Assembly (NCBI GenBank): GCA_028871345.1
Contig: JAGWNK010000019.1
Location: forward strand, 1 to 64,000
Source: Alphaproteobacteria bacterium
Lineage (GTDB): Bacteria; Pseudomonadota; Alphaproteobacteria; Micropepsales; Micropepsaceae
DNA: 64,000 bases
Reading direction: 5' to 3'
How positions within the stretch are numbered: position 1 is the first letter of the stretch; every line of letters starts with the position of its first letter. This document shows, in pieces, positions 23,785-30,691 of the stretch. The notes beneath the pieces were generated by a model. The model searched no databases, was not told the DNA's origin, and saw nothing but the letters and a program-made list of their open reading frames with translations. The position numbers and the translations under genes were made by a program.

Positions 23785-24729
23785 CTAATAGCCGCGCTTC
23801 GTCAGTTCCTGCTCCATCTCCGGCATTGCCTGGAACAGGTCGGCCACGAGGCCGTAATCGGCGACCTGGAAGATGGGCGCTTCTTCGTCCTTGTTGATGG
23901 CAGCGATGACCTTGGAATCCTTCATCCCCGCCAGATGCTGGATCGCGCCGGAAATGCCGACCGCGATGTAGAGCTCGGGCGCCACCACCTTGCCGGTCTG
24001 CCCGACCTGATAGTCGTTGGGCACGAAGCCGGCATCGACGGCCGCACGGCTCGCGCCGACAGCGGCGTGCAGCTTGTCGGCCACGCGCTCGAGAAGCGCG
24101 AAGTTTTCGCCCGACTGCAGCCCGCGCCCGCCCGAGATGATGATCTTGGCCGAGGTCAGTTCCGGCCGCTCCGACTTCGAAAGAGCTTCACCCACGAAGG
24201 AAGATGATGCGGCGACGTCTGCCGGTGCCACGCTCTGCACCGGCGCCGAACCCGAGTCTTCTGCGGGCTTGAAGGCGGTGGAGCGCACCGTGATGACTTT
24301 CTTGCCCGGACCGGCCTGCACCGTCTGGATGGCGTTGCCGGCATAGATCGGCCGCTCGAAGGTATCGGGCGACACGACCTTCAGCACTTCCGAGATCTGC
24401 GCGACGTCGAGCCTGGCCGCGACCCGCGGCAGAATGTTCTTCCCGTTGGTCGTCGCCGGCGCCAGGATGACGTCATAGTCCTTGGCCAGCGACAGGATCA
24501 GCGCAGCCATCGGTTCGGCCAGCGCGTGGGCATAGCGCGCGTCGTCGACCACCAGGATCTTCTCGGCGCCCCGCAGCTTCGCGGCCGCCTGCGCCGCAGC
24601 CGCACAATCCTGACCTGCCACCAGTACATGGACCGGCGCCCCGAGCTGGGTGGCGGCTGTGACCGCTTTTGCCGTTGCATCCTTGAGCGTGGCATTGTCG
24701 TGTTCGGCGAGGACCAGCGACGTCATCAC
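23785..24729 (-). CDS. etfA: Electron transfer flavoprotein subunit alpha
   Basis: This 314-residue subunit has the variable N-terminal domain ([34 protein letters not shown]) and the FAD-binding C-terminal domain with the ETF alpha signature: [36 protein letters not shown], followed by [29 protein letters not shown]. With EtfB it carries electrons from acyl-CoA dehydrogenases to ETF-ubiquinone oxidoreductase. Its ATG overlaps the etfB stop by four bases, supporting coupled synthesis of the heterodimer. Confidence 0.95.
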
Positions 24730-25475
24730 AGGACTCCCGCTTCGTTCTTCAGCTTGTCCAGCAGCTCGCCCACGCTCTTCACCTTGACGCCCGCCTGCCG
24801 CTTGGGCGGCTCGGCGACCTTGAGCACCTTGAGCCGCGGCGCGGCGTCGACGCCGAGCTCGGCAGGCGTCTTCTCGACAATAGGTTTCTTCTTGGCTTTC
24901 ATGATGTTCGGCAGCGATGCGTAGCGCGGCTCGTTAAGCCGCAGATCCGTGGTCATCACCGCCGGCAGCCTGATCTCGACCGTCTGCAGGCCTCCGTCGA
25001 TCTCGCGTTCGACGGTCGCCTTGCCGTCGCCCAGTTCCAGCTTGTGGGCGAAGGTCGCCTGCGGCCAGTCGTTGAGCGCCGCCAGCATCTGGCCGGTCTG
25101 GTTGGAATCGTCGTCGATCGCCTGCTTGCCCGTGATCACCAGGTCGGGCTTCTCGCCGTCGCAGAGCGCCTTGAGGATCTTGGCGACCGCCAGGGGTTCG
25201 GTGTCGCCTTCGGCTTTCACAAGGATGCCGCGGTCGGCGCCCATGGCCAGGGCGGTGCGGATTGTCTCGCAGGCCTGGGCCGGACCGATGGAGACGGCGA
25301 CGACCTCGGTGACCTTGCCCTTCTCCTTCAAACGAACGGCTTCTTCGACGGCGATCTCGTCGAAGGGATTCATCGACATCTTGACGTTGGCGAGTTCCAC
25401 ACCCGACTGGTCGGCTTTGACGCGGACCTTCACGTTGTAATCAATCACCCGCTTGACGGGCACCAGAACCTTCAT
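24726..25475 (-). CDS. etfB: Electron transfer flavoprotein subunit beta
   Basis: This 249-residue AMP-binding subunit of ETF starts [20 protein letters not shown] and carries [21 protein letters not shown], the [29 protein letters not shown] segment, [20 protein letters not shown] and [44 protein letters not shown]. All are normal for group I ETF. I chose the ATG at 25475 because the frame upstream has no family match. It leads an etfB-etfA-hydroxyacyl-CoA dehydrogenase operon. Confidence 0.95.
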
Positions 25476-25711
25476 GGCGTCCGAGGATCCCTGTTGAGTG
25501 GCCCGGCAATGAACAGTCTTTGCTGCCGTCCGCAACGCAGGCGGAGGTCTCTGTTCCGAGCCATTCCGAGTTTGTGCGGCGCAAAAGCTAGGCCTGCCTC
25601 CGTTGCCGTGTCAACGAAGGAGACCTAGCTATGCCCACGCTTTATGAAGGGTGAAGCAGAAATGCTGCATCGCACAAAAGTCGGCGCGTGCGGCTTTCCG
25701 CCGCGGCACTG

Positions 25712-26110
25712 CTACTTCTTGGTGTGCAGGTACGCGATGACGTTATGCACGTCGTCGGGGTTCGACAGGCCGGCAAAGGTCATCCGGGTTCCCGGCACCA
25801 ATTTCTGCGGATTCGCGACCCACTGTGCCAGCTTATCGTCGGTCCAGGTGATGCCGGAGCTCTTCAGCGCCGTGGAGTAGGAGAAGTTGGGCAGCGCCGC
25901 CGACTTGCGCCCTACGACGTCGAACAGATTGGGGCCGAGCCGGTTGCCGGCGCCCTGATCGGCCGTATGGCACATGGCGCAACGCTGGAAGACCGCAGCG
26001 CCTTTGGCTGCGTCTCCCGCCGAAGGACTAACCGACATCGCCAGCGCCGGGCTGGCCAGAAGGGCGGCCACGGCGGCCATGCCCAGGACTGATGCTAGAG
26101 AGCGAACCAT
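25712..26110 (-). CDS. Periplasmic class I cytochrome c
   Basis: This 132-residue protein has a Sec signal peptide (cleavage near PALA, residue 24) and one haem site, CAMCH (Cys44, Cys47, His48). It then shows GAGNRLGPNLFDVVGRK and the distal methionine in PGTRMTFAGL (Met about 110), the arrangement of cytochrome c2-type carriers. It is the second gene of a two-gene unit with the cytochrome-barrel protein, overlapping its 3' end by 16 bp. It may accept electrons from that protein in the periplasm and pass them to an oxidase or reaction centre; this is inferred from context. Confidence 0.92.
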   Translation of the reverse strand: MVRSLASVLGMAAVAALLASPALAMSVSPSAGDAAKGAAVFQRCAMCHTADQGAGNRLGPNLFDVVGRKSAALPNFSYSTALKSSGITWTDDKLAQWVANPQKLVPGTRMTFAGLSNPDDVHNVIAYLHTKK

Positions 26111-27429
26111 GTGAAGATCCTCAGGGTGTTGTTGTCGGACGCGTTGTGACCCAGGCCGTCATAGTTGGTGCTGGCGCCATCGAACTTCGAGTACATCGTG
26201 TATTGCAGGCCGACGCGCATGCCGAAGCGGCCGAAGGGCGGATCGTTGCCCCAGGGTGTGCCGTCGATCTGGAACATGACGCCGGAGCTGTCGGGCTTGA
26301 AGGTCGAATTGCCGCCGTACAGCGTCGTATCGGCGGAACCCCAGGTGTCGAACCACTGCACGGTCGCGCCGATCAGGTTGTGCCAGTAGTAGGAGCCGTC
26401 GACCCGGAAATCCTCCAGCGTGTCGCTTGTGTTTGTGGAAAGGCCCAGGACCTGCGACGCGCCAAGGTGCTGGTGCTCGTTCGTGTAGCGCGCATTGACA
26501 GTGTAGATGTTCGAGCCGTCGCCCATGAACTGGTACGAGCCGTCGATGCCCACGTCGGAATAGGAATCGGTGTTCGGCGTGGTCGTGTCGCCGCCGGGAT
26601 GCAGAGCAGGGAAGAAGCCGAACCCGCCGATTTCAAAGTTCTGGTCGCCGAAGTCCTTCTGATAGGCAACGCGGACATAAGGCGCCACGCCCGAGATCGG
26701 GCCCGGCCCGAAGTCCGTTCCCATGGCGCTCAGGAATCCGCTCGAGGGCGTCCAGTACATGCCGGCCTCGGCGTAGATGCTCTGGTCGATCCAGGCATAG
26801 GCCGTGGCGCCGAGCACGCTCTGCGCCAGTCCGCCGTCGAAGATGGTGCCGGCCGCCGGCGCCGGAGCCATGGCGCTGGCGGCATAGGGATAGCCCCAGG
26901 CCGGCAAGGTGTTCCACGCGTCCTCGACGCCCGGGTTGTTGTTGATGCTGAGGCCGAACTGCACGTCGCTGCCAGCCAGCGTGGCGCGGTCCACAACGCG
27001 GAAATCGAGATTGTCCCACGAGAACGAGCGCCCGATGCCGTCATAGGTCCATTGCGAGAAGACGCCCACATGGTCGCCGTAGCCGCCGGCCAGGAACAGG
27101 CTGGCCTGGTCGAGCGAGGTGTTGTCGTTCACGCTGTAATGGTCCGCCGGAGGCGACGCCTGATCCTTCTCCGTGTGCACGAACGAGGCCTCCGCCATCG
27201 CCGAGATCGGGAATGCGTCGGTCCCCGCATCCATCGTATAGCCGCCCATCTTGAAGGCGCGGCCGAACGGAGTCAGTTGCGGACCGAAGCCACCGACGTG
27301 GCAGGCGCTGCAAGGCTGACCGGTCTTCACGGCGAAAGCCGGAACGGCGTGTGCGGGCGTCGCGGCAATCGCAGCCACGGCTGCCACGGTATAGAGCTTG
27401 ATAAATTTGCGATTGGTAGTCGACGTCAT
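26095..27429 (-). CDS. Cyc2-like outer-membrane monohaem cytochrome fused to a predicted barrel
   Basis: This 444-residue protein has a signal peptide (residues 1-28, ending PAHA). A single haem site CSACH (Cys40, Cys43, His44) is embedded in VPAFAVKTGQPCSACHVGGF and followed by LTPFGRAFKMGGYTMDAG. About 380 residues of alternating beta-strand segments rich in Tyr, Trp, Asn and Gly follow. The order Phe-Ala, Thr-Gly, CxxCH, Phe-Gly-Arg-x-Phe-Lys, Gly-Tyr closely resembles the motif of Cyc2, the fused cytochrome-porin of iron oxidisers. Many undescribed alphaproteobacterial relatives share it, so iron oxidation is not proved. An ideal GGAGGGA lies before the ATG. Directly downstream is a periplasmic cytochrome c. 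Confidence 0.75.
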   Translation of the reverse strand: MTSTTNRKFIKLYTVAAVAAIAATPAHAVPAFAVKTGQPCSACHVGGFGPQLTPFGRAFKMGGYTMDAGTDAFPISAMAEASFVHTEKDQASPPADHYSVNDNTSLDQASLFLAGGYGDHVGVFSQWTYDGIGRSFSWDNLDFRVVDRATLAGSDVQFGLSINNNPGVEDAWNTLPAWGYPYAASAMAPAPAAGTIFDGGLAQSVLGATAYAWIDQSIYAEAGMYWTPSSGFLSAMGTDFGPGPISGVAPYVRVAYQKDFGDQNFEIGGFGFFPALHPGGDTTTPNTDSYSDVGIDGSYQFMGDGSNIYTVNARYTNEHQHLGASQVLGLSTNTSDTLEDFRVDGSYYWHNLIGATVQWFDTWGSADTTLYGGNSTFKPDSSGVMFQIDGTPWGNDPPFGRFGMRVGLQYTMYSKFDGASTNYDGLGHNASDNNTLRIFTWFAL

Positions 27430-27773
27430 CTCGATCCCTCCGTTCGGCGGTTGGCGATGTGCCGAACACCAATGATTATAGGGAGCGGTACGTTTCGATC
27501 AGGTACGTATTTTGACGTACGAAAAATGCGGGCGTTTTGTAAGTTGTTGTTCTCTTTGCGATTCGCAATTTCGCAGCGACATGCGATGATGTTCTGCGAC
27601 ACCACGCCGCAAATGCAAATCAAGTTGAAGTTCCGTGGTCGCGCAGTTCACGACGGATCACGATGTTCTGCGACACCACGTCGCAAATGCAAATCAAGTT
27701 GAGTTTCTATCCGCTCGCAAATCCGTGACGACACGCGATGGTCTGCGACATCGCGCCGCAAATTCAAATCAGC
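27430..27773. other. Non-coding region with operator-like and tandem repeats
   Basis: This 344-bp gap separates the start of the cytochrome-barrel gene from the end of the PH-domain gene. It holds a GTACGT repeat cluster at 27487-27520 and three imperfect copies of a roughly 75-bp unit from 27563 into the end of the next gene. I see no credible protein-coding frame. Base composition is more AT-rich than in flanking genes. Confidence 0.6.
27487..27520. promoter_or_regulatory. GTACGT repeat cluster, candidate operator
   Basis: GGTACGT occurs at 27487-27493 and 27502-27508 (15-bp spacing), and the second copy forms a perfect inverted repeat with ACGTAC at 27515-27520 (GTACGT, 6 bases, ACGTAC). 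It lies about 60-90 bp before the ATG of the cytochrome-barrel gene, where a dimeric regulator could act. The binding protein is unknown. Confidence 0.45.
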
Positions 27774-27783
27774 CTAAACTTTC
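27563..27783. repeat. Three imperfect tandem repeats, about 75 bp each
   Basis: Best-conserved cores lie at 27588-27632, 27662-27704 and 27737-27782, sharing the words TCTGCGACA, CGCAAAT and CAAATCA. The first two cores are almost identical (one substitution over the first 40 bases); the third has diverged and runs into the last codons of the PH-domain gene. In the first unit CTGCGACACCACG can pair with CGTGGTCGCGCAG 27 bases later. Role unknown: tandem small RNA, regulator sites or an intergenic repeat family are possible. Confidence 0.75.
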
Positions 27784-28187
27784 GCCGACCCGCCTCTGGC
27801 CGTCTCGATCGCGGCGCGGAAGGTAATGGGATCGGCAATGTCGGGGATGGTGACCGCATCGATGCCGGTGCCTTCGATGCGCAGATGGCCATAGCCCAGC
27901 ACGCGCCCCCATAGGCCTTGGGTCACGCGCACGCCTTCGATGTTCTGCAAGGCGATCTCGTTGGTGGAGAGCGTGAAAAGGCCGGTCTTCTCGACGAAGC
28001 GATGGGTCGTCACGCCGATCTCGGTGGTCCATTTGCGGATCATCATGGCGAAGAAGATCCAGATGCCGATGAGGATCCAGCCGAGGAAGACGAGGGCGAG
28101 CCAGGCCTTGGCGCTGTACCACCAGTGGAACTGGGCGCGCCTGACCAGCTTTTCGCCCTGGCCCAACGATTGTTCGATGTAGGGCAT
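27774..28187 (-). CDS. PH domain-containing membrane protein (bPH_2/YdbS-like)
   Basis: This 137-residue protein has a membrane hairpin (AWLALVFLGWILIGIWIFFAMMI) followed by a bacterial PH domain: TTEIGVTTHRFVEKTGLFTLSTNEIALQNIEGVRVTQGLWGRVLGYGHLRIEGTG, then a C-terminal DPITFRAAIETAR helix. bPH_2 proteins are common but poorly understood. Its last codons lie inside the third tandem repeat, so the repeat array either invaded the 3' end or began from it. No operon partner is obvious. Confidence 0.85.
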   Translation of the reverse strand: MPYIEQSLGQGEKLVRRAQFHWWYSAKAWLALVFLGWILIGIWIFFAMMIRKWTTEIGVTTHRFVEKTGLFTLSTNEIALQNIEGVRVTQGLWGRVLGYGHLRIEGTGIDAVTIPDIADPITFRAAIETARGGSAKV

Positions 28188-28300: not shown

Positions 28301-30691
28301 CTATTGGTCGTGCTCCGGCAACAGGACTTCGCGCATGCCCTTGTGATTGGGCTTGGAGATGACCTGCTCTTCTTCCATGCGCTCAATCAGGCGGGCGGCA
28401 CGGTTGTAACCGATCTGCAGGCGGCGCTGGATGTAGCTTGTCGTCGCCTTGCGTTCGCGGGCCACGATGGCGAGGGCCTTGTCGTACAGGTCGTCACCCG
28501 ACTCGCCGTTGCCTTCGCCATAGAGCGAATAAGGGTCGTCACCGTCCTCGTCGGGCTCCTCGGTGATGGCTTCCAGGTAATCCGGCGTGCCCTGCGTCTT
28601 GAGGAACCTCACGACGTCCTCGACCTCGTGGTCCGAGACGAACGGGCCGTGCACGCGCCGGATGCGCCCGCCCGCCATCATGTAGAGCATGTCGCCCTGG
28701 CCGAGCAGCTGTTCGGCGCCCTGTTCGCCGAGGATGGTGCGGCTGTCGACCTTGGAGGTCACCTGGAACGAGATGCGCGTCGGGAAGTTAGCCTTGATCG
28801 TGCCGGTGATGACGTCGACCGAAGGTCGCTGTGTCGCCGCGATGAGGTGGATGCCGGCCGCGCGCGCCATCTGCGCCAGGCGCTGCACCGCACCTTCGAC
28901 TTCCTTGCCGGATGTCATCATCAGGTCGGCCACTTCGTCGACCACCACGACGATGTAGGGCATGGGCTCGAGTTCGAGCACTTCGTCTTCGTAGACCGGC
29001 TTGCCGGTCTCACGATCGAAGCCGGTCTGCACCGTGCGCTTCAGGGTCTCGCCCTTGATCTTGGCCTTCTTGACGCGCTCGTTGAACGCTTCGACGCCGC
29101 GCACGCCGAGCTTCGACATCTTGCGGTAACGCTCTTCCATCTCGCGCACCGTCCATTTGAGCGCGACCACGGCCTTGCGCGGATCGGTGACCACCGCGGC
29201 CAGCAGGTGCGGGATGCCGTCATAGGCGCTGAGCTCGAGCATCTTGGGATCGATCATGATCAGGCGGCACTGGTCCGGCGGCATGCGGTAGAGCAGCGAC
29301 AGGATCATGGTGTTGAGCGCCACCGACTTGCCCGAGCCGGTCGTGCCGGCGATCAACAGGTGGGGCATCTTGGCGAGATCGGCCATCACCGGTTCACCGC
29401 CGATGGTCTTGCCCAGCGCCAGGGTCAGTGGGGCGCGGGCCTTCTCGAACTCGGTGGCCGCCAAGAGTTCGCGCAGATAGACCATCTCGCGCGTCTGGTT
29501 GGGCAGCTCGATGCCGAGCACGTTGCGTCCGGGGATGACGGCGATGCGCGCCGCCACCGCCGACATGGAGCGCGCCACGTCGTCGGCAAGGGAGATCACG
29601 CGCGAGGACTTCACGCCGGCCGCAGGCTCGAATTCGTAGAGCGTCACGACGGGGCCCGGGCGCACCGCCACGATGCGGCCTTTGACGCCGAAATCGCTCA
29701 GCACCGCCTCCAGCATGCGGGCGTTCTCTTCCAGAGACTCGTCGGAAAAGGCGGACTGGTCGCCGGCGTGCACCGGTTCCGCAAGAAGCCCCAGCGCCGG
29801 CAGCTCGTACTCGCCGGTGTCCAGCTTGAGCGCCGGCTGTTGCGGTCGCTTGACGACGGGCGCCTTGCGCACCTCCTCGCGCTTGACGCGGGTGGCCCGT
29901 GATGACGCGGCGAGGGGCTCGGGCGCGATGTCGAGGCCGAAATCCTCCTCGCGCTCGACGTCGGGCTCGATGTCGTCCTCTTCCTCGTTGACATGCGCGG
30001 CGGGGCGCAAACTGAGCGAGGGGATCTTCACGAGCGACCCCAGCCAGTAGACGAAGGCCGCGGCGTTCACGCTGTGGTGCACGAGGCGCCGCAAGCGCAG
30101 GTCAGATGCCGCCAGCGCCAGAGCGAAGCCGGCGGCGAACAACAGAACAGGCGCGGCCCAGCCGATCCAGCCGGCGTGGTAGAGCATCCCGAAGCGGTGG
30201 GAGAGGGCAGTGGATGCAATGCCGATCACGCCGCCCGCCCCGGCGGGGAATCCGCCCGGTTTGGGCAGGATGCCGAGGCCCGCAGCCAATAGGATGGTGG
30301 CGCACGGCCAGGCGAAGGCACGTGCCACGGCGTGGTCGAGCGTCTTGCCCAGAAGGGCGCGCGTGCCCCAGACGATCGGTGGGGCGAGGAAGGCCAGCGA
30401 CGCAAAACCGAAGAACTGCAGCAGCAGGTCCGCCGCCGTCGCCCCGAATGGTCCCATCAAGTTGGCGACATCGCCGCTGTTGGCGTTGTTGAAGCTGGTA
30501 TCGCCGGAATCGTAGCTGATGAGGGCAAGCAGCACCGCACCGCAGGCCGCCAGCACCAGCATGCCGGCGCCGCGCAGGATCAGGATCCGGGTGAAGCGGC
30601 CCAGTGCGTGGCGCGCCTCGGCAAGCGCCTCGGCCATGGCGGCGCCGCGCGGCCGCGGCTGATACACCCCCGTCGAGCGGGCTCCGCTCAT
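28301..30691 (-). CDS. ftsK: DNA translocase FtsK
   Basis: This 796-residue protein has four N-terminal membrane helices (residues about 35-200), a proline/acidic linker shorter than in Escherichia coli, and the RecA-type motor. The motor has Walker A GTTGSGKSVALN (about residue 450), Walker B YIVVVVDEVADLMM and QRPSVDVITGTIKANFP. A C-terminal winged-helix gamma domain (residues about 730-796: DKALAIVARERKATTSYIQRRLQIGYNRAARLIE) reads KOPS sites. It pumps chromosome DNA and links segregation to division. Its ATG overlaps the stop of the upstream aminotransferase gene by four bases. Confidence 0.95.
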   Translation of the reverse strand: MSGARSTGVYQPRPRGAAMAEALAEARHALGRFTRILILRGAGMLVLAACGAVLLALISYDSGDTSFNNANSGDVANLMGPFGATAADLLLQFFGFASLAFLAPPIVWGTRALLGKTLDHAVARAFAWPCATILLAAGLGILPKPGGFPAGAGGVIGIASTALSHRFGMLYHAGWIGWAAPVLLFAAGFALALAASDLRLRRLVHHSVNAAAFVYWLGSLVKIPSLSLRPAAHVNEEEDDIEPDVEREEDFGLDIAPEPLAASSRATRVKREEVRKAPVVKRPQQPALKLDTGEYELPALGLLAEPVHAGDQSAFSDESLEENARMLEAVLSDFGVKGRIVAVRPGPVVTLYEFEPAAGVKSSRVISLADDVARSMSAVAARIAVIPGRNVLGIELPNQTREMVYLRELLAATEFEKARAPLTLALGKTIGGEPVMADLAKMPHLLIAGTTGSGKSVALNTMILSLLYRMPPDQCRLIMIDPKMLELSAYDGIPHLLAAVVTDPRKAVVALKWTVREMEERYRKMSKLGVRGVEAFNERVKKAKIKGETLKRTVQTGFDRETGKPVYEDEVLELEPMPYIVVVVDEVADLMMTSGKEVEGAVQRLAQMARAAGIHLIAATQRPSVDVITGTIKANFPTRISFQVTSKVDSRTILGEQGAEQLLGQGDMLYMMAGGRIRRVHGPFVSDHEVEDVVRFLKTQGTPDYLEAITEEPDEDGDDPYSLYGEGNGESGDDLYDKALAIVARERKATTSYIQRRLQIGYNRAARLIERMEEEQVISKPNHKGMREVLLPEHDQ

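Follow-up and report, generated by a model that had tools for sequence, protein, structure and literature searches.

Microbial iron oxidation is traced with Cyc2 as a marker gene. As defined by Keffer et al. in 2021, Cyc2 combines a single CXXCH haem site with a fused 16-strand porin, with AXPXFAR[QK][TY] upstream and PXL downstream, and the accompanying screen drops sequences without PXFAR[QK][TY] (PMC8406198). Three characterized Cyc2-type proteins use Fe(II) as donor; the same authors allow that Cyc2 may have additional functions and treat distant homologues as uncertain (PMC8406198). In Acetobacteraceae, Cyc2 genes often adjoin genes for mono- or dihaem cytochromes (PMC10715153). The MtrAB, PioAB and MtoAB conduits likewise carry electrons across the outer membrane but are of another design, with a separate decahaem protein and a 26-strand porin.

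We analyzed a gene for a Cyc2-like protein and its surroundings in the window, by which we mean the whole stretch of 64,000 nucleotides. The features of the locus are as follows.

24726 to 25484, minus strand: etfB, one edge of the genomic slot (PF01012; genus survey)
25712 to 26110, minus strand: periplasmic class I cytochrome c, cytochrome c550-like, 132 aa (PF00034, PDB cytochromes c, slot survey and tree)
26095 to 26110, minus strand: 16-nt overlap of the barrel stop and the cytochrome c start, with ATGG from the conserved C-terminal Trp codon
26095 to 27429, minus strand: barrel gene, 444 aa, Cyc2-like fused monohaem cytochrome-porin (ORF, homologues, 16-strand model)
26101 to 27207, minus strand: predicted 16-stranded beta barrel, residues 75-443 (AlphaFold2 model, porin matches)
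27274 to 27282, minus strand: PQL (the PXL motif), residues 50-52, two residues farther from CXXCH than in canonical relatives
27298 to 27312, minus strand: CXXCH haem-binding site CSACH, residues 40-44 (from sequence; invariant among relatives)
27328 to 27330, minus strand: Val34 codon, at the Arg position of the published AXPXFAR[QK][TY] Cyc2 motif (PMC8406198 motif, per-sequence table, tree)
27346 to 27429, minus strand: signal peptide, residues 1-28 (...TPAHA|VPAF), predicted from sequence; Ala28 is invariant in 46 relatives
27588 to 27782, plus strand: three 46-nt direct repeats spaced 74 and 75 nt apart, between the PH gene and the barrel start
27774 to 28187, minus strand: bacterial PH-domain protein, the other slot edge (PF03703), followed by ftsK at 28301-30691

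The core of the 46-nt repeats was absent from all other loci compared.

We compared the barrel protein with the McAllister 2020 / Keffer 2021 definition of Cyc2, which includes a PXL 4 aa downstream of CXXCH and a length of at least 365 aa. The protein has a signal peptide and a single N-terminal CXXCH, is 444 aa long and, in a model of moderate confidence, has a 16-strand C-terminal porin. The mature chain begins VPAFAVKTGQPCSACHVGGFGPQLTPFGRAFKMGGY (after ...TPAHA), and its only CXXCH lies 12 residues in, with FGRxFK and GY downstream. PXFAR[QK][TY] is not present: the protein reads PAFAVKT (AVPAFAVKT), with Val34 in place of the Arg. Its PXL, read as PQL, is invariant and comes two residues late, and Arg-bearing relatives have the same spacing. 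The CXXCH, FGRxFK and GY that the initial annotation had described near the signal peptide stood. Because the protein fails the published screen, we filed it as a Cyc2-like variant and not as Cyc2 proper. In design and descent it is Cyc2-like, and one tested feature sets it outside the published definition. This is also how far the label of Cyc2-like cytochrome-barrel held: homology to motif-bearing proteins, 16 strands and neighboring carriers bear it out, up to the limit set by the screen. Judged by the published motif and features, it resembles Cyc2 of Mariprofundus PV-1 and Acidithiobacillus ferrooxidans in having a signal peptide, a single CXXCH near the mature N terminus, 16 strands, more than 365 aa, and a neighboring or partner periplasmic cytochrome c. 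It differs from them in having Val for Arg, in a PXL two residues later, and in its partner, where a resident class I cytochrome c takes the place of the c4-type Cyc1. Since the signature Arg is Val, the donor or the haem potential may differ from that of characterized Cyc2.

A barrel of about 380 residues had been predicted from the sequence, and a fold of 14-16 strands named as what a structure model should show. The barrel part is predicted here at about 370 residues, and our AlphaFold2 model, of moderate confidence and built from six aligned sequences only, placed 16 strands over residues 75-443 (pTM 0.69, mean pLDDT 64.8). The closest solved structures were 16-stranded porins, namely OmpC (VIA Z 20.9), with OprO 4rjx among the top Foldseek matches, in agreement with the prediction. 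The haem region was modeled with low confidence (pLDDT of <50 for the CXXCH region, residues 39-52).

The barrel protein had no match in Pfam, NCBIfam or PDB sequences. Intact homologues were found in 19 of the 41 genomes of the genus, with a fragment in one more, and a second copy in the same genome is 56% identical and ends at the contig end. Further homologues occur in a Caulobacteraceae MAG, Thermomonas, Acetobacteraceae and Verrucomicrobia, and plasmid-borne ones in Polymorphobacter, Caballeronia, Paraburkholderia, Methylocystis, Acidiphilium and Ideonella. An alignment of 23 homologues has 42 invariant columns. This conservation, together with intact homologues in the genus and in other classes and phyla, demonstrates that the barrel gene is not a chance ORF. 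Two sets of positions varied in no more than one of 46 relatives: the haem patch (A28, P30, T36, CXXCH, P50, L52, G56, F59, K60 and Y64) and seven charged barrel residues (D139, R144, D170, R253, D292, D296 and E318). Conservation of both sets was the same with or without the signature Arg. As for a sixth haem ligand, no Met or His besides H44 was invariant among the 46 relatives; the next best kept was M78, in 41 of them.

The initial annotation had named phylogeny as a check on the family assignment. In our tree of 58 proteins, which was built without Cyc2 of A. ferrooxidans and PV-1, the barrel protein sits inside the tree of motif-bearing Cyc2-type proteins, as the assignment had it. It belongs to a 15-member Arg-less clade (support 100/99), which is nested in a 25-member group that shares the shifted PXL (99/95); some of that group, Thermomonas included, retain the Arg. 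The signature Arg changed at least three separate times in the tree, to V, A, E, Q, D or M. Additional Arg-less cases outside the clade are a pair of members of the phylum and an Acidiphilium plasmid. Among the plasmid copies (L082 and L084), the match scores of an Arg-less protein from a plasmid listed under Acidithiobacillus ferrooxidans YQ-N3 equal those from the Acidiphilium cryptum plasmid, and the annotation divides the copy on Acidiphilium multivorum pACMV3 between two ORFs.

Profile comparisons separated two kinds of relatives. Against proteins of the genus and related ones with AVPS[FY]ARQTGLACxACHT, hhalign gave an E value of 9E-106 for the whole protein and 7.5E-86 for the barrel alone. 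Profile matches were also found in 89 of 398 sampled genomes of the phylum; many were in one family (f61) and covered the N-terminal haem domain only. Against the f61 set, the whole protein gave 1.3E-16 and the barrel alone a probability of 9%, so that homology is carried by the haem domain; the f61 motif AIPAFARQTGAACLSCHFQxFPxL suggests a Cluster 1-type Cyc2. The canonical Cyc2-type proteins of the genus (L039-L046) are about 40% identical to the barrel protein over the full length and occupy the same ftsK-etfB slot in sister species. Unlike it, they retain PS[FY]ARQTG...CHTVFP[EQ]L, and a dihaem cytochrome of the c4 type is encoded after them.

We then counted the electron carriers encoded within 2 kb of Arg-less barrels at 15 loci with readable context (the 15-member clade minus the contig-end paralogue plus an Acetobacteraceae neighbor, L025). 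A soluble one-electron carrier was present at 14 of the 15: a class I cytochrome c at 10, a HiPIP at 3 (one of these also with a cupredoxin) and a cupredoxin at 1. L025, with no carrier within 2 kb, was the sole exception. A dihaem cytochrome of the c4 type follows the canonical relatives, often with a HiPIP, and barrels of the genus outside the slot are accompanied by a HiPIP, a cupredoxin, a c4 or another cytochrome c. That chemically unrelated carriers adjoin one type of barrel favors electron transfer over solute transport. The same logic of gene neighborhood has already been published for the Acetobacteraceae Cyc2 homologues (PMC10715153), but the accessible portion of that report contains neither the Arg-less signature, nor the switch to HiPIP or cupredoxin, nor the history of the slot. 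At one locus (L087, 4136-6444), the genes after an Arg-bearing relative encode a class I cytochrome c and, as a possible direct link to quinones, a NapC-like tetrahaem cytochrome.

The overlapping class I cytochrome c gene was found where it had been described, at 25712-26110 on the minus strand with a 16-nt overlap. Its product has a CXXCH and matches PF00034 (E 2.2e-9, 39 bits against a cut-off of 21.3); the nearest NCBIfam model is CycA c-550, with a score far under its cut-off. The two genes had further been called a pair, and a dedicated partnership is not borne out. We examined the DNA beside etfB in 34 genomes of the genus and found a class I cytochrome c there in 29. A barrel was also present in 10 of these, and 19 had no intact barrel in the slot. 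Thus, the resident gene is that for the cytochrome c, the barrel gene is an accessory newcomer, and we rejected a dedicated, co-evolved partnership as a shown fact. The slot barrels are Arg-less in the window and in L027, L028, L032, L033, L035 and L163, and canonical, alongside a class I cytochrome c, in L043, L044 and L045. In L041, the slot has no class I cytochrome c and holds a HiPIP, a canonical Cyc2-type barrel and a c4; canonical Cyc2-type genes in the ftsK-etfB slot of other species of the genus come with a dihaem c4 or a HiPIP (L041, L044, L045). In another genome, G030 (L143 ~1286-1384, contig C83), a 33-residue piece resembling the barrel C terminus, with an in-frame stop, directly precedes the cytochrome c start and looks, by its sequence, like a decayed barrel copy. 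In the cytochrome tree, which is poorly resolved and patchily supported, the cytochrome c of the window clusters with other slot cytochromes. One slot (L163 2416-6850, genome G458) holds two cytochromes c beside its Arg-less barrel, one overlapping the barrel gene and the other closer to etfB.

The same form of overlap was seen at five other loci (L027, L032, L023, L078 and L163), and the 16-nt overlap also occurs in the Caulobacteraceae MAG and on the Polymorphobacter plasmid. The barrel and the cytochrome c may have moved jointly between families. However, a shared overlap can also arise without joint transfer, since ATGG results simply from the Trp codon conserved at the C terminus.

The sequence analysis shows the homology, the motif, the predicted barrel, the linkage to carriers and an aa3 oxidase in the genome; that haem is attached, where the protein and its haem sit, which way electrons flow and what donates them are what we infer. 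On this basis, the barrel protein is probably a Cyc2-like outer-membrane cytochrome-porin that moves electrons inward from an external donor, via a carrier, to an aa3 oxidase. The mature N terminus, about 45 residues with one covalent haem c, would plug the periplasmic mouth of the 16-strand barrel. A small reduced external donor, most plausibly Fe2+, would enter the pore and give its electron to the haem. From there, the electron would pass to a soluble periplasmic one-electron carrier, which would be the resident class I cytochrome c here and a HiPIP, a cupredoxin or a dihaem c4 in relatives. The carrier would in turn reduce the aa3 cytochrome c oxidase, which the genome encodes (CtaD above cut-off). 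One HiPIP gene lies elsewhere in the genome. Fe(II) is a plausible donor, and the likeliest one, by analogy with the three characterized Cyc2-type proteins (PMC8406198). Autotrophy is not indicated, because a search of the genome for RuBisCO gave only a weak RuBisCO-like match.

The genome also encodes, judging from sequence, a second and unrelated gene set for extracellular electron transfer. Contig C36 (L173 10203-16176; L174 2599-10856) holds two gene pairs, in each of which a decahaem cytochrome of the DmsE/MtrA family precedes a porin of the MtrB/PioB family. Also encoded there are a NapC-family cytochrome, two 9-haem proteins, one of them a cytochrome fused to a membrane domain, and response regulators. 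The NCBIfam cut-offs were exceeded by the decahaem matches and by one MtrB/PioB match, and the Pfam cut-off by both porins. This set is of the MtrAB/PioAB/MtoAB kind and is separate from the barrel locus. An association between the barrel and MtrAB in the genus was considered and rejected: both MtrB and a Cyc2-like gene occur in 5 of the 41 genomes, with 4.6 expected.

We weighed three other explanations. The first keeps the same conduit and changes its donor: the Arg-less branch could be specialized for Mn(II), a reduced organic or humic compound, a phenazine-like shuttle or copper. The repeated replacement of the Arg (V, A, E, Q, D or M, on at least three occasions) in an otherwise conserved haem patch fits such a change, as does the room that Keffer et al. 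leave for additional functions and for uncertainty about distant homologues (PMC8406198). However, the invariant acidic and basic residues of the barrel are identical with and without the Arg, and Arg-bearing and Arg-less genes share a genomic slot in sister species. We therefore regard a donor other than Fe(II) as a real but minority possibility. That the haem is structural, vestigial or sensory in an ordinary porin is very improbable. General porins are the best structural matches of the predicted barrel, but across classes no part of the protein is better conserved than the CXXCH and the residues around it, and soluble electron carriers recur beside the gene.

The direction of flow can also be questioned. 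The barrel could pass electrons to an external acceptor, such as Fe(III) or humics, when oxygen is limited. Consistent with this, the genome has two MtrAB-type pairs and a NapC-family cytochrome, the relative at L087 has a NapC-like tetrahaem cytochrome beside its barrel and cytochrome c, and a Cyc2 isoform is reported in ferric iron reduction by acidithiobacilli (PMC10715153). However, most of the partners (class I cytochrome c, HiPIP, cupredoxin) are carriers of high potential, whose usual role is to supply oxidases, and MtrB and Cyc2-like genes are independent in the genus (5 of 41 genomes with both, against 4.6). Outward flow is thus less likely than inward flow, and we consider it unlikely overall.

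With inward transfer by a Cyc2-like conduit as the preferred reading, the Arg-less branch bears on how such proteins are surveyed. The branch would be missed, because the published census removes sequences without PXFAR[QK][TY] (PMC8406198), and electron uptake at the outer membrane in Alphaproteobacteria may be undercounted as it escapes the motif screen. We suggest, tentatively and with more doubt than confidence, that the branch is a separate, horizontally mobile class of cytochrome-porin that uses the existing one-electron carrier of the cell, has a donor or haem potential unlike that of iron-oxidizing Cyc2, and is left out by motif-filtered Cyc2 surveys. The repeated loss of the Arg offers a ready set of natural variants for testing the role of this residue.

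One further gene of the genome deserves mention. A 772-aa protein on contig C50 (L141 2601-4919) has a COX1-type domain by Pfam and no NCBIfam match, and it is possibly a quinol nitric oxide reductase.
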